DNA of 64,000 nt from a virus. Positions 3,518 to 28,772 of the stretch are shown here, in pieces. Where the stretch lies: positions 1-64,000 of IMG/VR virus record IMGVR_UViG_3300032046_000021; one strand, written 5' to 3'. Positions within the stretch are counted from its first letter, which is position 1. Each line of letters begins with the position of its first letter. Under the pieces are notes generated by a model that was not told the DNA's origin, ran no database searches, and saw only the letters and a program-made list of their open reading frames with translations. Both the position numbers and the translations under genes were made by a program.

Positions 3518-4957
3518 TCACCTTTGAGTTGTTCTCTTTTTTTCAGACGGATAATCGGGCCATACTGTATTACGCGTCTTTTCAGTAGCAATAATAGTGT
3601 CCTCGATACTACTGGTGCCAGGAGCAGTGTTATCTACTGGCTCCATTTCATCAATTTCAGCTTTCTGGTCCTCACTTAATGAAGGCAATCCCCACTCTGC
3701 TCTTATTTCCGTCCGAGTGAAACACCGAGACTGCCTCATTATTGCAACTTGACGCATAATCTCTGTTTTGTCCTTCTCCAATATCAACCTGAGCCTGATA
3801 TTCAAGTTATTCAAAACTTCATCGTACCGTCTACCAAACTTCACCTGTATACTCTTTCTAAGTACCCCTTCTAGTTGTGTTTTGATGATATCTGCAACTG
3901 ATAATGCCTGCAAGATAGCAAACGAACCACTCATTAACGCACTCGCATACGAAGTGTTACGTGAGACTGGCGGTAATCCCATAGCATTGGAAATAGCGTC
4001 ATTGATCTGTGCGATTTTCTGGTTTGGTTGTTGGTAATTGGTAGACTTCGGTTCCACATATTCAATTTCAGTATTCTTATCCGTCACCATACCAACGTCT
4101 ACTTGCCTACCTTGAATTCCCTGAGCATAAGTATCAGCCGCTGTTTGTGCAGCTGCTAACGCCTGTCTTTCACGTTCCTCTCTAGTGCCCTGATATTTCT
4201 CAGGCGAAAACTGCGACAAATCAATCTTATGCCACTCCCTAGGTACATTTCTATGTGACCATAAGATGTCGTTAATCATGGTATTGACTTTCCACTCTAA
4301 CGAAGAAAGTAGAGTTCGAGTCGGCGGTTTTGACCACACGCCATATGTCTTTCTACCCATAATGTCTACTAAGTACGTTGATTTAGCATTAAGTGAACAT
4401 TTGACACATGCAGTAGCATCATATATTTGTTGTTGTGAGGAGTCTTGTTCATTGGAAACATAGAAGTTGGGATTGAATATCTCGGCACTATAGTTTCCTA
4501 TTTGGTCTTTTGTTTCGACGGCAGTTAACTGGAATCGAGGCAGAGTTTCGATTTTCGTCACTCCGTTAGCTACATCCCAAACCATGTGCTTAACGACATC
4601 ACCATATTTCATGAGGTCGAATGCAGTGGAAAAGAATTCACCTTTGAAGTCTAGCTTGTACGCCATTCTCTTAGCTTCGTCCAGAAGTTCCACTTCATTA
4701 TCATCCAACTGCCTACCAGCCTCAATAGAGATGTCCGAAAACGCCTGTCTACTCATGTGTGCAATTCTGGATAGGTAACCGTATAAATCAGCATCAATGT
4801 CTATCATTGCATCGTATATTCGGTAGAAGTTCCCTTGCTTTGCTTCGGAAAAGAAAGAATATGGCCAGTTCAACGTCTGCACTATAGGTGGTTGCGATTG
4901 GGGAGTAGAGTCGCGAATTGCGCTTAGTTTGGCAGTTATCTTTTTCAGGAAACCCAT
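3518..4957 (-). CDS. Portal protein
   Basis: A 479-residue protein immediately downstream of the terminase large subunit (2-bp gap) and upstream of the protease. The N-terminal half (DAMIDIDADLYGYLSRIAHMSRQAF...) is typical of portal wing regions. A helical segment with NQKIAQINDAISNAMGLPP around residues 315-340 and SGSFAILQALSVADI at about 350-365 resembles the portal clip/stem area, where DNA-translocating dodecamers are formed. Length is normal for the family. The tail is polar and probably disordered. Confidence 0.8.
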   Translation of the reverse strand: MGFLKKITAKLSAIRDSTPQSQPPIVQTLNWPYSFFSEAKQGNFYRIYDAMIDIDADLYGYLSRIAHMSRQAFSDISIEAGRQLDDNEVELLDEAKRMAYKLDFKGEFFSTAFDLMKYGDVVKHMVWDVANGVTKIETLPRFQLTAVETKDQIGNYSAEIFNPNFYVSNEQDSSQQQIYDATACVKCSLNAKSTYLVDIMGRKTYGVWSKPPTRTLLSSLEWKVNTMINDILWSHRNVPREWHKIDLSQFSPEKYQGTREERERQALAAAQTAADTYAQGIQGRQVDVGMVTDKNTEIEYVEPKSTNYQQPNQKIAQINDAISNAMGLPPVSRNTSYASALMSGSFAILQALSVADIIKTQLEGVLRKSIQVKFGRRYDEVLNNLNIRLRLILEKDKTEIMRQVAIMRQSRCFTRTEIRAEWGLPSLSEDQKAEIDEMEPVDNTAPGTSSIEDTIIATEKTRNTVWPDYPSEKKRTTQR

Positions 4958-7109: not shown

Positions 7110-7159
7110 TTGTTTATATGTTTATTGTAGGAGTTCCCATTCCGCTGTTTTTCCGAGCG

Positions 7160-7185
7160 GGAAACGGTTAAACGGTTTTACTACC
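7160..7185 (+). repeat. ACGGTT element, left copy
   Basis: A 26-bp element beginning GGAAACGGTTAAACGGTT and ending TACTACC. A closely matching inverted copy lies at 7768..7793 on the other side of the gene at 7282. A direct copy lies at 16377..16402, and partial copies lie near 9977-10031 and 24055. Inside the pair, TTTA-repeat tracts (7208-7224 and about 7730-7749) are also inverted. The elements could be operators for a viral repressor or ends of a mobile unit. Confidence 0.6.
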
Positions 7186-7248
7186 AAGGAAAAAGCCCAC
7201 TACGTCTAGTTTATTTATTTATTTAATATAAACGCCTAAACCAAAGAG

Positions 7249-7257
7249 TTTATATAT
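7249..7257 (+). promoter_or_regulatory. Promoter of the ribbon-helix-helix gene
   Basis: TTTATATAT lies about 25-33 nt before the ATG at 7282, and no GGAGG sequence precedes that start. A leaderless transcript from an archaeal TATA box is the simplest reading. Confidence 0.5.
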
Positions 7258-7281
7258 GCACCTCCCCCATATATACAACTA

Positions 7282-7725
7282 ATGGTGACAACCATGAAAA
7301 TGATAGGAGCGTTAGTAACAGAAGAACAACACAAACGATTAAAGCAATGGTGTGGGAGCAATTGTACAACCATCACGAGAGTATTGCAAGATTGTGTGGT
7401 AGAATTGTTGAACTCAGTCGACAGCCTGCCACAGTCTAAGTTGCCAATTAATGCACAGAAAGTTGTAGATGCAGTGTTGCTTGAAAACCAATCGATGCCT
7501 ACTGGCAATCCTAACACCCAAACCACTAAAGAAAACTTCACAGCCAAAAACATTGAAATTCGAGGAATACAATACAAATCCCCCACTCCCTGCCAGATTA
7601 CCAAAGATGCAATAATAGTACCTGAAGACACCTCCGATGACGATATGATGTTATTAGGGGGACTAGGATTAGCTGTTGAATTAAAGACAGGTTGGAAGAC
7701 TGTTACGCCACTTACTGTGGTTTAA
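7282..7725 (+). CDS. Ribbon-helix-helix-like DNA-binding protein A
   Basis: A 147-residue protein. The N-terminus (MIGALVTEEQHKRLKQWC..., then ITRVLQDCVVELL) fits a CopG-type strand-helix-helix. The C-terminal tail has VPEDTSDDD and GWKTVTPL, matching VPNDTAEED and EWRTDVPL in the protein at 36244..36624, so the two are paralogues. A second ATG at 7294 is possible. The gene is bracketed by inverted ACGGTT elements and TTTA tracts, which may be its own operators. Autoregulation of the early/late switch is inferred. Confidence 0.6.
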   Translation: MVTTMKMIGALVTEEQHKRLKQWCGSNCTTITRVLQDCVVELLNSVDSLPQSKLPINAQKVVDAVLLENQSMPTGNPNTQTTKENFTAKNIEIRGIQYKSPTPCQITKDAIIVPEDTSDDDMMLLGGLGLAVELKTGWKTVTPLTVV

Positions 7726-7767
7726 AATAAATAAATAAATAAATAAACTACTATCTCTTTTTTTAAT

Positions 7768-7793
7768 GTAGTATAACCGTGGAACCGTTTCAC
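7768..7793 (-). repeat. ACGGTT element, right inverted copy
   Basis: Read on the minus strand this starts GTGAAACGGTT and ends TACTAC, closely matching the element at 7160-7185 in opposite orientation. The pair encloses the gene at 7282-7725. Confidence 0.6.
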
Positions 7794-7939
7794 AATGGGT
7801 GCCATCTAGCGTTCCCAAAAAAACACTTACAGTCCAAACCGTAAACACTTGAAACTTTACTCTGGGAATTCCGCAGAGTAAATTCTCGTAGAGATGACAT
7901 ATTCCGTCATTTTTATATATTAAATATTAAGATTCCTTA

Positions 7940-8069
7940 CTTAAGTATTACGACTTAAGATTACGGAGTTTATATTAAGTATTACGACTTATGACGTAAG
8001 ACTTGAGTATTAAGATAAAGGACTGTATATTAAATATTAAGACTTAAGTATTGTTAATTAAGTCTTAAG
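7940..8069. repeat. CTTAAG cluster 1
   Basis: CTTAAG occurs at 7940, 7954, 8043 and 8064, embedded in longer near-repeats such as GTATTACGACTTA and AAGTCTTAAGATTACGGA. The cluster ends at the last C before the cytosine-free tract. Similar clusters lie at 9113-9204 and, more loosely, 9841-10044. Possible roles are iteron-like origin sites, recombination sites or regulator binding. Confidence 0.55.
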
Positions 8070-8159
8070 ATTACGGAAGTAATATTGTATAGTAAGTAAT
8101 AGGAGTTAGGAAAGTATATAAATAAATTAATATTGAATAGTAAGTATTAAGATATAAAA

Positions 8160-8179
8160 GTTTAAATGGAAATGTAAAT
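8160..8179 (+). promoter_or_regulatory. C-less copy of the GTTTAC-N8-GTAAAC operator
   Basis: GTTTAA-N8-GTAAAT keeps the spacing and other bases of the palindromic operator found around the next two genes (for example 10134 and 10202), but each top-strand C has been replaced (C to A on the left arm, C to T on the right). Confidence 0.5.
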
Positions 8180-8212
8180 TTTAATATTATAAAAAGTTTA
8201 AAATTAAGGAAA

Positions 8213-8232
8213 GTTTAAATGTAAATGTAGAA
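8213..8232 (+). promoter_or_regulatory. C-less promoter-proximal operator
   Basis: GTTTAA-N8-GTAGAA lies immediately before a TATA box. It corresponds in position and sequence to GTTTAC-N8-GTAGAC at 10338 and GTTTAC-N8-GTTGAC at 9371, again with every C replaced by A. Confidence 0.55.
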
Positions 8233-8236
8233 AAGA

Positions 8237-8246
8237 TTTATATATA
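8237..8246 (+). promoter_or_regulatory. TATA box of the C-free operon
   Basis: TTTATATATA lies 38-47 nt before the ATG at 8284. Transcription would start near 8265-8275, so the mRNA to the T run at 9061 would contain no C. Confidence 0.55.
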
Positions 8247-8283
8247 AGTTTGTATATTATATAATTAAGGAAAGTGAAAAAAA

Positions 8284-8520
8284 ATGAAAATAAGTGAAAA
8301 AGTTTGGGAAAGTGGAAAAAGTTTGAATGGAAATGAGAAAAAGGAAAAAATATTGGAGGTTTTGGTAAAGGAAGGAATATGTGATATTGAGGAGATAAGG
8401 AAAGTAGGAAAAGAAAAGTGGATATGGGGAAGTTTGAAAAGTTTGGAAGAAGAAGGATTAGTGGAAAGTAGAAAAGTAGGAAAGAAGAAGTTTTATAGGA
8501 TAAAGGGGGTGGAAAATTGA
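8284..8520 (+). CDS. Small winged-helix protein, C-free paralogue
   Basis: A 78-residue protein (MKISEKVWESGKSL...) that aligns along its length with the proteins at 9449 and 11217. Shared features are the N-terminal WE.G, DI/DM..EI, KW.(W/Y/F)G..K.L and G.(V/L)E.(R)K..GKK..YR, a likely winged-helix fold with the wing at GKKKFYR. It has no Ala, Thr, Pro, His or Gln, because those codons need C. Leu is only TTA/TTG, Ser only AGT and Arg only AGA/AGG. It probably binds DNA as a regulator, but its target is unknown. Confidence 0.7.
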   Translation: MKISEKVWESGKSLNGNEKKEKILEVLVKEGICDIEEIRKVGKEKWIWGSLKSLEEEGLVESRKVGKKKFYRIKGVEN

Positions 8521-8840
8521 AATTTGAGAATTGGAGTGATAAGAGAATAAAAGAGGAAAATAGGAAAAGAGAAGGAATAAAGGAGGGTATGAAAATGAAA
8601 AGTTGGAAAGAAGTAAAAGAAGAATGTAAGGAAAATGGAGTAGATATGAATAGGTTGAATTGGGTAGATAAAAGAAAAGGAGGAAGAAGAAGGAAAGTTG
8701 TAGGAATAGGAGGAAGTGAGAAAGAAAAAGAGATAATGGAAAGAAATGGATTTAGGAAATATAAAAGTGTGGAAGTAGGAATGAGTAGAGGATATGGATA
8801 TTGGTGTTGGGTAAGGTTTGAAAAGGAGGTGGAAAAATGA
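8517..8840 (+). CDS. Basic protein of unknown function, C-free gene
   Basis: A 107-residue protein starting at a TTG that overlaps the previous stop (TTGA), preceded by GGGGGTGG as RBS. It is very rich in Lys, Arg, Glu and Gly (KRKGGRRRKVVGIGG near residues 51-65). The segment KEKEIMERNGFRKYKSVEVG followed by YGYWCWVRFEKE looks like helix then beta-strands, recalling a restriction-alleviation or RNA-binding protein, but I do not recognise a family. No Ala, Thr, Pro, His or Gln occurs. Confidence 0.6.
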   Translation: MKFENWSDKRIKEENRKREGIKEGMKMKSWKEVKEECKENGVDMNRLNWVDKRKGGRRRKVVGIGGSEKEKEIMERNGFRKYKSVEVGMSRGYGYWCWVRFEKEVEK

Positions 8841-9040
8841 GTTATAAAAGTTGGGGAGGAAGAAAAATAGTTAGGAGAAAAGATGTGAAAGGAAAATGTG
8901 GAGTTTGTGGAAAAGAGGAAGTGGAAATGATAGAATTGGAAAGGAAAGAAGGAGAAAGTGAGGAAATAGGATTAGTGATGGAAGTTTGTAAGAGTTGTAA
9001 GTATGTAATAGATTGGGGATTAGGAAAAGAGGATTGGTAG
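8837..9040 (+). CDS. Zinc-ribbon protein, C-free gene
   Basis: A 67-residue protein overlapping the previous stop by ATGA, with AAAGGAGGTGG as RBS. Two CxxC pairs (CGVC near residue 22 and CKSC near 51) form a probable zinc ribbon, with a basic N-terminus (GGRKIVRRKDVKGK). Third gene of the translationally coupled C-free operon. Nucleic-acid binding is likely but unproven. Like its partners it lacks all amino acids whose codons require C. Confidence 0.65.
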   Translation: MSYKSWGGRKIVRRKDVKGKCGVCGKEEVEMIELERKEGESEEIGLVMEVCKSCKYVIDWGLGKEDW

Positions 9041-9060
9041 AAGGATATTAAGTAAGAAAG

Positions 9061-9070
9061 TTTTTTTTTT
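9061..9070 (+). terminator. T10 terminator of the C-free operon
   Basis: Ten consecutive T, 20 nt after the stop at 9040, with no stem. U-tracts alone terminate archaeal RNA polymerase. Confidence 0.6.
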
Positions 9071-9098
9071 GTAAGTTTGGATTTTGGAAATTTAGTAT

Positions 9099-9317
9099 CG
9101 TAAATCGTACGACTTAAGTCTTACTTCTTAATACTTCATACAACTCACCTCACCCTCCCCAAATCTTAAGACTTAAGACTTCAGAAAGTGTCGTAAGTCT
9201 TAAGACTCAAGTCTTAATATACATCTTTCCAAAGTTCCTCTCTGTTTCCATTATAACGGAAAGTTCCAATAATATATAAATACTTTCCCTTGGTATCGTA
9301 AGTCTTACGACACGGAA
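9099..9317. repeat. CTTAAG cluster 2 (right edge of C-free tract)
   Basis: CTTAAG occurs at 9113, 9165, 9172 and 9199, including the perfect palindromes GACTTAAGTC (9111-9120) and AGTCTTAAGACT (9196-9207). Related GTAAGTCTTACGAC follows near 9299-9311. No gene is present. It mirrors the cluster at 7940-8069. Confidence 0.6.
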
Positions 9318-9337
9318 GTTTACACTTTTATATAAAC
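9318..9337 (+). promoter_or_regulatory. GTTTAC-N8 operator, distal copy for gene 9449
   Basis: GTTTAC-N8-ATAAAC, one mismatch from the perfect palindrome at 10134 and 10202. It lies 34 bp upstream of the promoter-proximal copy. Confidence 0.5.
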
Positions 9338-9370
9338 TTTTAAATGTTTAGGAGTAAGGAAAGTTAAAAA

Positions 9371-9402
9371 GTTTACACTTTTATGTTGACAAAATTTATA
9401 TA
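9371..9402 (+). promoter_or_regulatory. Operator plus TATA box for gene 9449
   Basis: GTTTAC-N8-GTTGAC (9371-9390) runs straight into AAAATTTATATAC. The same operator-TATA arrangement occurs at 10338-10369 and, without C, at 8213-8246. A repressor bound here would block TFB/TBP. Confidence 0.6.
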
Positions 9403-9448
9403 CTAGAAAGTATATATTATAAGTGGAAATAAAAGGAGGTGAAAAGGA

Positions 9449-9694
9449 ATGCAAATAAATGCGGAAGAATGGGAAGCGGGAACTGCAGTTTCGGCAAGCG
9501 AAAATAAGGAAGCAATTCTGAAAGCGTTTGCAAAAGTGAAGGGCAAAGGAATGGATATGAAGGAAATTGGAAAGCTAAGCGGACTAAAGTGGCCATATGG
9601 AGCAGTAAAGGCTTTAGTGGAAGATGGAAAGCTGGAACGCAAGCAGTTCGGAAAGAAGTTTGGGTATAGGATGGTAGAAGTTAAGGAGGAATAA
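9449..9694 (+). CDS. Small winged-helix protein, paralogue 2
   Basis: An 81-residue protein starting MQINAEEWEAGTAV after AAAGGAGGTGA. It aligns with the proteins at 8284 and 11217, sharing DMKEIGKLSGLKW and the wing GKLERKQFGKKFGYR. It probably binds DNA as a small winged helix. The promoter carries two copies of the GTTTAC operator, so it may be autoregulated or cross-regulated by its paralogues. Codon use is normal, making it a natural control for the C-free relative. Confidence 0.65.
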   Translation: MQINAEEWEAGTAVSASENKEAILKAFAKVKGKGMDMKEIGKLSGLKWPYGAVKALVEDGKLERKQFGKKFGYRMVEVKEE

Positions 9695-9976
9695 ACCTCC
9701 TAACTTTCCATCCTCCAAACTCCAACCTTTGTTTGAAATCCAACCGTGCAAAGTCGGAATTGTAGAACTTTGGCGGCGATGGGGTGAGCCCAACCATATG
9801 GCTGCCGGTAGTGTGGGAACCCGGGGCATGTCGTAAATCCTAAGACTCAAGTCTTACTACTTAAGTCTTAATGTACTCATCTGAACTCCTAAGACTCAAG
9901 TAACATACTTTACGATTACAATTTGCGTACGATCTAGACTCCGTATGACGGGCTTCCGAAAACGTTTCCAACATAA

Positions 9977-10031
9977 AAACGGTGATACTACTATATGTTT
10001 TTTTATGAGCCGTTTTAACGGTTAACCGTTT
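9977..10031. repeat. ACGGTT element, third locus
   Basis: AAAACGGTGATACTAC, then a T-rich spacer, then CCGTTTTAACGGTTAACCGTTTC. This has the same half-sites and TACTAC as the elements at 7160 and 16377, arranged partly inverted. Confidence 0.5.
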
Positions 10032-10133
10032 CTGGTATCTTAAGATACAATATACTACGCTGTCCACTTCTTACTCCGGGAGTTCGGGACTTAGTCTTTC
10101 CACCATTTCCCTAAGTTCCCATATATAAATAAA

Positions 10134-10153
10134 GTTTACCTGAGAATGTAAAC
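10134..10153 (+). promoter_or_regulatory. GTTTAC-N8-GTAAAC operator (perfect)
   Basis: A perfect 6-bp-arm palindrome with an 8-bp spacer, about 275 bp upstream of gene 10409 and just after an ATATATAAAT tract. Confidence 0.6.
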
Positions 10154-10201
10154 GTCACTTAGTGAACTAGACATATTATCCTGATGTGGAAATATAATGG
10201 G

Positions 10202-10221
10202 GTTTACAGCATTAAGTAAAC
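10202..10221 (+). promoter_or_regulatory. GTTTAC-N8-GTAAAC operator (perfect)
   Basis: A second perfect copy. Spacing from the previous one is 68 bp. Confidence 0.6.
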
Positions 10222-10265
10222 TTCCTTATGTGGCTGAGGCGCATCTTCTTACTTTTAATATGGAG

Positions 10266-10303
10266 GTTTAATTGAATATGTAAATTTACATTTTTATGTA
10301 AAC
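10266..10303 (+). promoter_or_regulatory. Two overlapping GTTTAC-type operators
   Basis: GTTTAA-N8-GTAAAT (10266-10285) overlaps ATTTAC-N8-GTAAAC (10284-10303). Both keep the 8-bp spacer. Confidence 0.5.
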
Positions 10304-10337
10304 TTTTAATATAGTCATATTTTGGACATCAGTGGAA

Positions 10338-10369
10338 GTTTACAGCAACGTGTAGACAAATTTTATATA
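10338..10369 (+). promoter_or_regulatory. Promoter-proximal operator and TATA box of gene 10409
   Basis: GTTTAC-N8-GTAGAC followed directly by AAATTTTATATATT. The TATA box is about 40 nt before the ATG. The layout matches 9371-9402. Confidence 0.6.
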
Positions 10370-10408
10370 TTTGAAAAATAATTTTGTTATGTACTTAAGG
10401 GACTCAAA

Positions 10409-11170
10409 ATGGAAATAAAAAATAAGCTTCCAGAAACGGAAAAGCAACTTCCGGACCATTTGAGAATTCTAGAACTAAAGGATTGCGTATTCACGTACGA
10501 TGAAGTAACTTCTAGGGGTTTGCAAAATGCATTCCAACTTTATTGTGGACAGAGGTTGATAGTGGAGTACAGCAAGGTAATTAGACAAAGGGTTAAGGTT
10601 AGGGGCGTCGGAATTGCTAAGTTCAAGCAGAAGTATAATGTTCCAAAAGGTACTGCACTTTATACTTTTGTTCGGGACCACGAGACAAAGGAGTATAAGG
10701 AATTGGAAAGGCTTTGGGCTAAGAGGATAGAGTGGATACAAATGGTCGACCGTGTGAATTGTGATAGAGTAGATAGAGTTGTGGAAGATTCACAAAGGGC
10801 AACTGAGAGACACAAAACAAAGAGTATCGATAAGCAGATAGTGGAGGAGGTTGAGTGGTTGAAGGGAACCAAAACGGCACCAAAGTTCAAAGGGCCATTT
10901 GTATGCAAGGAATGCGGAGGTACAACCTATAGAGTTAATAAAGGACAACAGGCATGTACTAGTTGTGGAGTTGGCTTTAATACACAAAGTGCAGGCCCCG
11001 GTCCAAGAGTCATAAAGAGACCAAAAAGGAAACTCAAAAGAGTGGAGTACATTAATGGAGACGTGAAGGTATTAAGTAAGGAGGGACAATTAGTGAAGCC
11101 TTTGGAGAGGAATGGCGTGATGGAAGTTTATGGTCACGAAGGGTGGATGAGTGGCAAGGGAGTAATGTAG
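10409..11170 (+). CDS. Zinc-ribbon protein of unknown function
   Basis: A 253-residue protein. The first 150 residues are charged and helical with no recognised motif. A zinc ribbon follows near residues 169-190 (CKECGG...CTSCG), and a strongly basic linker (KRPKRKLKR) after about residue 205. This suggests a nucleic-acid-binding protein, possibly an early regulator. The five-operator control region upstream implies tight regulation. It lacks a strong RBS (only AAGGGA), unlike most neighbours. It is followed by a small winged-helix gene 46 bp downstream. Confidence 0.6.
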   Translation: MEIKNKLPETEKQLPDHLRILELKDCVFTYDEVTSRGLQNAFQLYCGQRLIVEYSKVIRQRVKVRGVGIAKFKQKYNVPKGTALYTFVRDHETKEYKELERLWAKRIEWIQMVDRVNCDRVDRVVEDSQRATERHKTKSIDKQIVEEVEWLKGTKTAPKFKGPFVCKECGGTTYRVNKGQQACTSCGVGFNTQSAGPGPRVIKRPKRKLKRVEYINGDVKVLSKEGQLVKPLERNGVMEVYGHEGWMSGKGVM

Positions 11171-11216
11171 TCAGAGTCACTCAGTTATGAAGTGACAGGC
11201 GAGGAGGTGAAAATGA

Positions 11217-11459
11217 ATGCCAATAATTGATGAAGAGGAATGGGAAAGTGGAACCGCTTCTACTTCAGGCGCTACTGAATCAATACTGGAAGCGTTCAAG
11301 AACTTAGGAGCAAACAAGGGCATGGACATGGCGGAAGTCAAGAAGATCACCGGACTCAAATGGATCTTTGGTCCCATGAAGCAGCTGGTTGAGGCCGGCA
11401 AGTTGGAGCGCAAGAAATTCGGCAAGCGGTTCGCGTATAGGCTTGTAGCCCAAGAGTAG
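11217..11459 (+). CDS. Small winged-helix protein, paralogue 3 (MPI start)
   Basis: An 80-residue protein starting MPIIDEEEWESGT. The RBS is GAGGAGGTGA; the nearer ATG at 11213 stops after five codons. It aligns with 9449 and 8284 in DMAEVKKITGLKW, FGPMKQLVEAGKLERKKFG and YR. Likely a DNA-binding winged helix. It belongs to the group of early proteins with an MPI N-terminus. Confidence 0.65.
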   Translation: MPIIDEEEWESGTASTSGATESILEAFKNLGANKGMDMAEVKKITGLKWIFGPMKQLVEAGKLERKKFGKRFAYRLVAQE

Positions 11460-11466
11460 GCTACAG

Positions 11467-20299: not shown

Positions 20300-20533
20300 A
20301 TGGAAATGTGTCCAATAAGTGCCGACGAGTTTGAAAAGGGCAAGAGTGCAACCAAGAAGGACCTCACGGAGGTTCTAGAAGAGGGCAAAGGGTATACCAC
20401 GAAGGAGGTAGCAGACCTCATCGGGCGTTCGTGGGGCATAGCAAAGAACATCCTCAAGGCTGCAGCCGACGAAGGCACAATAGAGGTAAAGAAAGTTGGA
20501 AGAAGTATCTACTGGCGCCTGAAGCCTCAGTAG
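20300..20533 (+). CDS. Small winged-helix protein, paralogue 5
   Basis: A 77-residue protein (MEMCPISADEFEKGKSA...); a start at 20306 (MCPIS) is equally possible after GGGGAGGTGA. YTTKEVADLIGRSWGIAKNILKAAADEG and VKKVGRSIYWRL match the helix-wing layout of the proteins at 9449, 11217 and 19874, including W.(I)AK and the wing. Likely DNA-binding regulator. Has its own promoter and a pyrimidine-rich terminator region (20546-20577). Confidence 0.6.
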   Translation: MEMCPISADEFEKGKSATKKDLTEVLEEGKGYTTKEVADLIGRSWGIAKNILKAAADEGTIEVKKVGRSIYWRLKPQ

Positions 20534-24158: not shown

Positions 24159-24359
24159 GTGGGTTCAGGTCAGGTAGGAAGATATGCATTTCCATCTCGT
24201 GCAGATGGAAAGTGCAAGAAGGGTCATGATTTGGTAGGAATCGTGAGTGTGAAGTTATTTTCGATAGGGAGGGACTGGTTAGTGGGAGGTTATCTTTTCT
24301 GTCCAGTTTGTAAGGTCATTTATCGGAAGGTGCAATCAGATGGTAAAAGAACGAATTAG
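24159..24359 (+). CDS. Small zinc-ribbon protein
   Basis: A 66-residue protein with a GTG start after AGAGGGA. CKKGHDL and CPVCK give a zinc-ribbon pattern. Overlaps queD by 20 bases. The 110-bp gap before it (24049-24158) contains a partial ACGGTTAA element near 24059 and no gene. Confidence 0.5.
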   Translation: MGSGQVGRYAFPSRADGKCKKGHDLVGIVSVKLFSIGRDWLVGGYLFCPVCKVIYRKVQSDGKRTN

Positions 24360-24753
24360 GATATTAAGTATCGATAGTATCGAGTTCGATGCAGCACATT
24401 ATATTCCGGGACATCCCAAATGTGGGTGTATTCATGGTCACACGTTCTTTGTTCGGAACCTAAGAGTATACTGCAACAAGTTTGTGGACTTTGGAAAGAT
24501 CAAGGAAGAGATCCGTCATTGGGATCATATACTTGTGATTCCGAAGAAGCATATGGACTTTTGGTACTCAAAAATTAATCCATTATTACATGAAATTGGA
24601 ATCAACCAATGCTTTATGATAGTTGATGGTGAGCCATCAGTCGAAGATATTTCGGATTTGATAGTAGCTCAGCTAAAAACTATTCCTGGAGTTGTTGATG
24701 TACACTTCACTCTTTGTGAAGGACCACATCAGAGAGTTGAGGGGTTTGAGTAA
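24340..24753 (+). CDS. queD: QueD, 6-carboxytetrahydropterin synthase
   Basis: A 137-residue member of the PTPS family. FDAAHYIP (zinc His20), CGCIHGH (Cys at the active site, zinc His32 and His34), VDFGKIKEEI and WDH (near 61-63) are all present, as is a late acidic residue in LCEGP. It converts dihydroneopterin triphosphate to 6-carboxytetrahydropterin, step two of preQ0 synthesis. It lies between a zinc-ribbon gene and queE. Confidence 0.87.
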   Translation: MVKERIRILSIDSIEFDAAHYIPGHPKCGCIHGHTFFVRNLRVYCNKFVDFGKIKEEIRHWDHILVIPKKHMDFWYSKINPLLHEIGINQCFMIVDGEPSVEDISDLIVAQLKTIPGVVDVHFTLCEGPHQRVEGFE

Positions 24754-24871
24754 GCCAGCAAAGTGCTGTCCTCATTGTGGTACGGATCTTAGTGACTATA
24801 CTCTTCCTTCAGATGAATATTGGAAAACTCGTTGCCCGTATTGCGGAGGTAAGTTAGATGTTAGTAAATGA
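24746..24871 (+). CDS. 41-residue zinc-ribbon protein
   Basis: TTG start after GAGGGG, overlapping queD by eight bases and queE by 14. CPHCG and CPYCGG (two CxxC) make a clear zinc ribbon. It lies between queD and queE, so its transcript is part of the deazaguanine operon. Role unknown. Confidence 0.5.
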   Translation: MSKPAKCCPHCGTDLSDYTLPSDEYWKTRCPYCGGKLDVSK

Positions 24872-25487
24872 AATCTTCGAATCAATTCAAGGAGAAGGTA
24901 CATACCTCGGATACCCCGCACTCTTTATACGTTTGCAGGGATGCAATTTGAAGTGTTGGTTCTGTGACACGAAGTATGCATTAGGAATGTATGAGGACGG
25001 AATGGATGTTAGGCCCGAAAGCTTGGTTGCGTTAATCAGAAACTCACCTTCCTATCACGTTGTGTTTACAGGAGGGGAACCTTTACTTCAACAGAAAGAG
25101 ATAGGTAAAGTTATACGTGAGGTTCAGAGAGCCAAGTTCTATGAAGTGGAAACTAACGGGACAATCAAGCCTAATATTGAGTTTTTGGTTCACCTTTTCA
25201 CAGTATCACCTAAGGATGACTTTCAAATTTCACCTAGCTTTTTCGAGATACCGGGAGTGGTTTTTAAGTTCGTGGTTGATAAAGAGGAGGATTTGGAGAA
25301 AATCGAGAACTTTGTAGACTTACACAACATCACAAGGCCAGTGTACTTGATGCCACAAGCTACTACACTGTTGGAGCATAAGAAGAAGTTACCGATGCTT
25401 TTTGAGTTCGTGAAAGTGCATCAAGGGCACTATAGGATTACGCCTAGGTTGCAGATTTTGGCGTATGGGAAGAGGAAGGGAGTTTGA
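24858..25487 (+). CDS. queE: QueE, 7-carboxy-7-deazaguanine synthase
   Basis: A 209-residue radical SAM enzyme. FESIQGEG at the start, the CNLKCWFC cluster motif (Cys29, 33, 36) binding a 4Fe-4S centre, and TGGEPLLQ for SAM binding are all present. It makes CDG from 6-carboxytetrahydropterin. RBS TGCGGAGGT lies inside the preceding small gene. Confidence 0.9.
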   Translation: MLVNEIFESIQGEGTYLGYPALFIRLQGCNLKCWFCDTKYALGMYEDGMDVRPESLVALIRNSPSYHVVFTGGEPLLQQKEIGKVIREVQRAKFYEVETNGTIKPNIEFLVHLFTVSPKDDFQISPSFFEIPGVVFKFVVDKEEDLEKIENFVDLHNITRPVYLMPQATTLLEHKKKLPMLFEFVKVHQGHYRITPRLQILAYGKRKGV

Positions 25488-28049: not shown

Positions 28050-28772
28050 ATGGAAGTTATGGTTACAAAATCTCAACGTTCGACAGTCGTATCTCCAGCA
28101 TTTAGTAAACCTTCAACAAAGGTTGTAATGTTGTTGAGTGGGGGAGTTGACTCTGCTACCTTAGCATACTATTTGCTGAAACAGCATCAGGAAGTATACG
28201 CACTGACTGTTGATTATGGGCAAAAGCACTTTAAGGAACTCCGAGCAGCCGTAGAAATTGCTCATGCTGCAGGTATAAGTTGGAAAGTTCTTGATTTACG
28301 AACGTTACAACCTCTGCTTAAAAGTGCATTGACTACTAATGATCCAATCCCAGAAGGCCACTATACTGCAGAGTCTCAGAAGTTAACAGTCGTACCCAAC
28401 AGAAACGCTATCCTATTGAACATTGCTGCTGGCTACGCAATTAGCATAGGCGCCAACACTATTGCGTATGCTGCACATAGGAACGATAGGACAATATACC
28501 CCGACTGCAGGCCAGAGTTTGTGGGCGCGTTACAGGCAGCATTGGATGCCGGAACAGATGCAGATTTACTGGTATATGCACCGTTCATTAACATGACGAA
28601 GGCGCAAATTGTGGAACTAGGTATATCATTGAACGTTCCCTTTGAATTAACCTGGTCATGTTATAAGGGAGGACAAAAGGCGTGTGGCAGGTGTGGAACG
28701 TGTGTGGAACGATTAGAGGCATTTGCGTTGAATCATGTTAAGGATCCAATTGAGTATGAGGGAGTAATATGA
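28050..28772 (+). CDS. queC: QueC, 7-cyano-7-deazaguanine (preQ0) synthase
   Basis: A 240-residue protein with RBS GGAGGAGGTGA. PP-loop SGGVDS at residues 30-35, VDYGQ near 54-58, VPNRN, and a C-terminal zinc cluster (CYKGGQKACGRCGTC) are all present. It uses ATP and ammonia to turn CDG into preQ0. The last biosynthetic step before the QueF reduction and DpdA insertion. Confidence 0.92.
   Translation: MEVMVTKSQRSTVVSPAFSKPSTKVVMLLSGGVDSATLAYYLLKQHQEVYALTVDYGQKHFKELRAAVEIAHAAGISWKVLDLRTLQPLLKSALTTNDPIPEGHYTAESQKLTVVPNRNAILLNIAAGYAISIGANTIAYAAHRNDRTIYPDCRPEFVGALQAALDAGTDADLLVYAPFINMTKAQIVELGISLNVPFELTWSCYKGGQKACGRCGTCVERLEAFALNHVKDPIEYEGVI

Follow-up and report, generated by a model that had tools for sequence, protein, structure and literature searches.

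A palindromic operator at a fixed distance from the TATA boxes of four promoters in a presumed archaeal tailed virus, and its candidate winged-helix regulators

To our knowledge, few operators have been worked out for archaeal tailed viruses. In the operator regions of phage lambda, divergent promoters are separated by several operators that differ in strength. Stf76 of pSSVx and ORF80 of pRN1 are winged-helix proteins of ~80 aa that have two palindromes about six turns apart before their own gene; the proximal site overlaps the BRE, the distal site is the stronger of the two, and cooperative binding has been shown for Stf76 (PMC4027180). F55 of SSV1 and the ribbon-helix-helix (RHH) regulators SvtR and AvtR act on several viral promoters including their own, through sites located at the BRE (PMC5569661), and for the activators Ptr2 and Ss-LrpB a dimer site directly adjoins the BRE on its upstream side, with further sites beyond it (PMC2995911).

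The present study concerns a window of 64,000 nt, which comprises positions 1 to 64,000 of the virus record IMGVR_UViG_3300032046_000021 (67.3 kb in full). Its products include a terminase and a family-B DNA polymerase that, within a phage collection, is closest to the polymerases of haloarchaeal tailed viruses, and TTTATATA boxes lie 24-56 nt upstream of several start codons, including those of genes outside the operator units described below; on these grounds we take it to be an archaeal tailed virus. Bacterial sigma-70 promoters, the alternative reading, have partial matches near the promoters of genes 8284 and 10409 (P8284 and P10409), yet the TATA reading alone fits all four promoters, and both the recurrence of TTTATATA before other genes and the affinities of the polymerase argue against a sigma-70 reading. 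One sister record was found, IMGVR_UViG_3300032070_000007, with ~95-97% identity across most of the compared sequence, and this sister virus was the only match when relatives of the regulators were sought in viral contigs, bacterial and archaeal genomes, phages, and plasmids.

The operator set is real and constrained, and it belongs to four promoters; the circuit is of a known kind, placed in an unstudied virus and protein family and including an unusual C-free version. The sites, their excess, their fixed spacing to the TATA boxes, the conservation of their arms, and the presence of one paralog in each rightward unit were computed directly. A preliminary description of this DNA had reported seven copies of the palindrome GTTTAC-N8-GTAAAC, at 9318, 9371, 10134, 10202, 10266, 10284, and 10338, two of them perfect; every coordinate was exact, and the two perfect copies are those at 10134 and 10202. 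These copies, two C-less relatives, and the associated TATA boxes are as follows, with mismatches counted against GTTTAC-N8-GTAAAC.

8160..8179, plus strand: distal operator of P8284, the C-less GTTTAAATGGAAATGTAAAT, 2 mismatches, non-consensus only at the two C positions
8213..8232, plus strand: proximal operator of P8284, C-less, 3 mismatches, 53 bp past the distal copy and 4 bp before TTTATATA
8237..8244, plus strand: TATA box of P8284, TTTATATA, 47 nt upstream of ATG 8284
9318..9337, plus strand: distal operator of P9449, 1 mismatch
9371..9390, plus strand: proximal operator of P9449, 2 mismatches, 53 bp past the distal copy and 4 bp before the TATA box
9395..9402, plus strand: TATA box of P9449, ACAAAATTTATATA, 54 nt upstream of ATG 9449
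10122..10129, minus strand: TATA box of the putative leftward promoter, TTTATATA, 4 bp past the operator, conserved in the sister
10134..10153, minus strand: perfect operator, proximal for the putative leftward promoter, 0 mismatches; arms kept in the sister, with one spacer change
10202..10221, plus strand: perfect operator in the shared control region, 0 mismatches, arms identical in the sister
10266..10285, plus strand: operator with arms of the C-less form (GTTTAA/GTAAAT), 2 mismatches, overlapping the next operator by 2 bp, unchanged in the sister
10284..10303, plus strand: distal operator of P10409, 1 mismatch, 54 bp before the proximal copy
10338..10357, plus strand: proximal operator of P10409, 1 mismatch, 4 bp before the TATA box
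10362..10369, plus strand: TATA box of P10409, ACAAATTTTATATA, 47 nt upstream of ATG 10409

Sites with at most one mismatch number five in the 64-kb window, all within 9318-10357, against 0.12 expected from shuffled sequence, and seven sites with at most two mismatches fall in 9200-10408, against 0.12 expected for that region. A scan allowing up to three mismatches is uninformative, as its 36 sites match the chance frequency (35.4 expected in the window), and the claim therefore rests on the good copies. Across all 67.3 kb of the record, only two more sites have 2 mismatches, the C-less 8160 and 16451. The preliminary description had held that a motif common elsewhere without promoters would count against an operator; that scan was run, and neither virus record has a copy with at most one mismatch outside the control region. 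Two viral contigs with paired perfect palindromes were judged unrelated (GC 46-59%, operator-TATA composite absent). The aligned sites give a slightly longer best consensus, (A)GTTTACA-N6-TGTAAAC(T). In a hold-out test, each promoter was removed in turn, a matrix was made from the remaining ones, and all window positions were ranked. The two sites of P8284 were then the two best non-training positions in the window (8160 first, 8213 second), as were the two sites of P9449 (9318 top), and four of the five sites of P10409 were the best four (10284 top); the exception was 10202, which scored 9.9 despite its perfect core because of its flanks and spacer. As the sites of held-out promoters were recovered by the other promoters, one operator is common to the three.

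The proximal copy had been described as touching the TATA box, which is not the case: the gap to TTTATATA is exactly 4 bp in every instance, and these 4 bp are the expected position of the BRE. The window has exactly four composites of operator, 4 bp, and TTTATATA, and shuffled sequences have none, so that of the earlier regulon of at least three promoters the shared operator stands, whereas the set is in fact four, a leftward unit on the minus strand having been missed. Among 2.9 million viral contigs, the C-type composite was found only in the sister, three times (P9449, P10409, and the leftward promoter), P8284 being missed by this search because it is C-less. Six operator-TATA matches in genomes were all bacterial and were taken as chance. 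In the three rightward promoters, the distal and proximal operators are spaced by 53, 53, and 54 bp, that is, five helical turns, and the distal copy always scores higher than the proximal one (25.4, 27.0, and 28.7 vs 18.8, 20.6, and 22.0), these scores, like all motif scores here outside the hold-out test, being derived from the sites themselves. P8284 and P9449 are probably descendants of one duplicated module, and their equal geometry is therefore not two independent observations. Minus-strand TTTATATA boxes also lie at 8122 and 9280, in each case exactly 38 bp to the left of the distal operator (8160 and 9318, respectively); their presence in both paralogous modules means that P8284 and P9449 may be bidirectional promoters, and no leftward gene for these two boxes is evident.

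The arrangement resembles that of Stf76 and ORF80 in having two sites separated by an integral number of helical turns with the proximal one at the BRE, here in three promoters and 53 or 54 bp apart, and the distal site, which is the stronger in Stf76/ORF80, is the better-scoring one here. It differs from theirs in the operator itself (GTTTAC-N8-GTAAAC, as opposed to TTAA-N7-TTAA), in the spacing (53 bp here vs 60), and in the setting, a tailed virus that has a family-B polymerase, three paralogs, and four promoters.

On the minus strand, the leftward composite consists of the operator at 10153-10134, then TTTA, then TTTATATA at 10129-10122, and five operators in all lie between the leftward TATA box (10129) and the rightward one (10362). 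Graded operators between divergent promoters recall phage lambda; unlike in lambda, the promoters here are of the archaeal TATA type, the proteins are winged-helix proteins, and the leftward transcript has no clear gene. Leftward transcription from the 10153-10122 promoter is predicted from the sequence: the putative transcript would cover ~400 bp in which no ORF is conserved over its length in the sister, and past those ~400 bp it would be antisense to 9449. No RNA family was found in the region, and RNA folding at 9695-9840 returned nothing unusual.

Every operator is retained by the sister. The two records are identical over 8075-9830 and the sister shows few differences, so that conservation is informative for 10085-10408 only; there the window and the sister differ at 52 positions in all, with 0/58 changes in operator arms, 7/40 in spacers, and 45/226 in flanks and other positions (together 52/266). 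Zero changes in the arms would arise by chance with P of about 1e-5. At 10202, five of the eight spacer bases are changed in the sister and both arms are intact.

The genes of the rightward units are listed below.

8284..8520, plus strand: winged-helix paralog that leads the C-free operon, 38% identical to 9449, with weak TrmB and ArsR/SmtB model matches
9449..9694, plus strand: winged-helix paralog in an apparently single-gene unit, with winged-helix topology in the AlphaFold2 model
10409..11170, plus strand: 253-aa protein, first in the P10409 operon, with a weak TFIIB zinc-ribbon match (residues 164-188, E 0.03)
11217..11459, plus strand: winged-helix paralog, second in the P10409 operon, 58% identical to 9449

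The paralogs 8284, 9449, and 11217 are 78-81 aa long, one for each rightward operator-controlled unit, and a terminator-like hairpin (11443-11466) with a T run lies at the end of 11217. A fourth paralog, at 20312, is diverged and has no operator, only a TATA box. In the sister, an extra ORF lies between the orthologs of 10409 and 11217 (window 11170-11217 vs sister 7710-8042), which makes the P10409 operon variable in gene content. The AlphaFold2 model of 9449, of middling confidence (pLDDT 70), has helices at 20-29, 37-44, and 50-59 and strands at 62-67 and 70-75, and it shows the helix-strand-helix-helix and two-strand wing of the fold; its structural matches are mostly generic winged helices, with VIA-align Z of 8-9 to MarR, ArsR, and Z-alpha, and searching solved structures by sequence yielded nothing significant. 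Like Stf76 and ORF80, the three paralogs are winged-helix proteins of ~80 aa. None of them matches PF05584 (Sulfolobus_pRN), a model that the control, pRN1 ORF80, matches at 1e-30, and hhalign of the 8284/9449/11217 family against ORF80 gave a probability of 0.4%, so that homology is undetectable. It seems, then, that the layout seen in Stf76, two palindromes an integral number of turns apart, also arose in a winged-helix family unrelated to it.

Of the binders proposed in the preliminary description, the best fit is offered by the winged-helix proteins 8284, 9449, and 11217, and from the linkage of paralogs to operators we infer that these proteins bind the sites. An operator at a fixed TATA distance in four promoters, of which three drive related small DNA-binding proteins, is most likely a self-regulating switch, the small winged-helix proteins most likely autoregulating as repressors. 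On the reading that we consider probable, the repeats are the operators of a winged-helix autoregulatory circuit. The ~80-aa proteins 8284, 9449, and 11217 would bind (A)GTTTACA-N6-TGTAAAC(T) as dimers, first at the stronger, distal operator and next, in a cooperative step, at the weaker proximal operator five helical turns downstream; once occupied, the proximal operator, which ends 4 bp short of the TATA box, would block TFB/TBP and so shut down synthesis of the regulator itself. The five-site array between the leftward and rightward promoters (10122-10369) would then form a divergent control region that may respond in a switch-like manner. The order of loading, the help given by the distal site to the proximal one, and the subsequent exclusion of TFB/TBP are proposed by analogy with Stf76/ORF80, and we infer likewise the identity of the binder, its dimerisation, its cooperativity, and repression.

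It is rather unlikely, in our estimate, that the same proteins instead activate from the same sites, with a proximal dimer upstream of the BRE recruiting TBP or TFB and the distal site adding cooperativity, which would give positive autoregulation or an early-to-middle switch. Ptr2 and Ss-LrpB do work through a tightly constrained dimer site a few bp upstream of the BRE plus further upstream sites (PMC2995911), and the virus resembles them in having a site that adjoins the BRE, equally constrained at 4 bp from the TATA box, along with further sites upstream. Those activators differ in being Lrp-family proteins with a RAM domain, and their adjacent sites are 2-3 turns apart vs 5 here (PMC2995911); 8284, 9449, and 11217 match no Lrp/AsnC model in Pfam, and at ~80 aa they are too short for an added RAM domain. 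All four TATA boxes are TTTATATA and therefore look like strong core promoters needing no help, and Stf76, the closest structural parallel, is believed to exert a negative effect from its proximal site (PMC4027180).

That a viral RHH protein, 7282 or 36244, reads the operators in the manner of F55, SvtR, or AvtR appears improbable. In the archaeal viruses studied so far, DNA-binding regulators are usually of the RHH type (PMC5569661), both 7282 and 36244 are weakly ParG-like, and the 36244 ortholog is kept in the sister; the likeness to F55 extends to a putative virus-encoded regulator acting over several viral promoters, its own included, from sites at the BRE. F55, SvtR, and AvtR differ, however, in their RHH fold and in their DNA motifs, F55 using tandem ATAGATAG repeats. 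Moreover, 7282 has no good match in the sister while all operators are kept there, the RHH genes are not among the operator-controlled genes, and 7282 has its own TATA box without an operator. A locus for replication or partition, with the array serving as iterons or a centromere instead of as transcription operators, strikes us as very improbable: the Foldseek matches include the centromere-binding winged-helix proteins TubR and AspA, and the region is rich in other palindromic repeats, but these matches are generic winged helices among which MarR, ArsR, and IclR rank equally high, and four copies stand at one fixed distance from a TATA box on both strands. The proposed autoregulatory winged-helix circuit offers an exact, testable site, a fixed TATA geometry, and a natural set of paralogous regulators.

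The plus strand contains no C over the 1,024 bp of 8075-9098, the next longest C-free run in the window being 48 bp. This zone, which is identical in the sister virus, spans P8284, both its operators, three genes, and a trailing T run; its three ORFs use no P, H, Q, A, or T, and its bias is towards purines, more than a plain change of C to T. The distal operator of P8284 keeps all ten non-C consensus positions and replaces only the two C's, and such a natural C-free operator would reveal which bases of the site matter. The P10409 array, which lies outside the C-free zone, has arms of the same form, GTTTAA and GTAAAT, at 10266, and this suggests a possible action of the 8284 product on P10409 as well. 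We regard as doubtful a further proposal, in which the regulators and operators would form three parallel circuits, that of 8284 being adapted to a C-purged unit, with the 10266 variant as its link to P10409 and the purge protective. If so, the absence of C would keep the 8284 unit active when template-strand G or transcript C is compromised, for instance by 7-deazaguanine modification of the DNA or by a CTP analogue that host defence supplies and that terminates chains. A search for literature on sequences lacking cytosine found nothing relevant.

Homologs of QueD, QueE, and QueC are encoded at 24340-24753, 24858-25487, and 28050-28772 and suggest 7-deazaguanine DNA modification; the models used identified no transglycosylase. 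In the sister, unrelated sequence stands in place of window positions 7134-7853, which comprise RHH gene 7282 with its flanks, while the adjoining 2 kb is nearly identical, a pattern that suggests a recent cassette exchange. A palindromic repeat like AAGTCTTAAGACTTAAGTCTT flanks the C-free zone in at least nine copies (7916-8072, 9096-9215, and 9831-9901). A second repeated motif, AAACGGT(T)..(AACGGTT)..ACTAC, is found in several intergenic regions of both viruses, at 7162, 7790 (minus strand), 9977, 16379, and 16433 (minus strand) in the window and at 4313 (minus strand) and 6529 in the sister, and is possibly the operator of another regulator.
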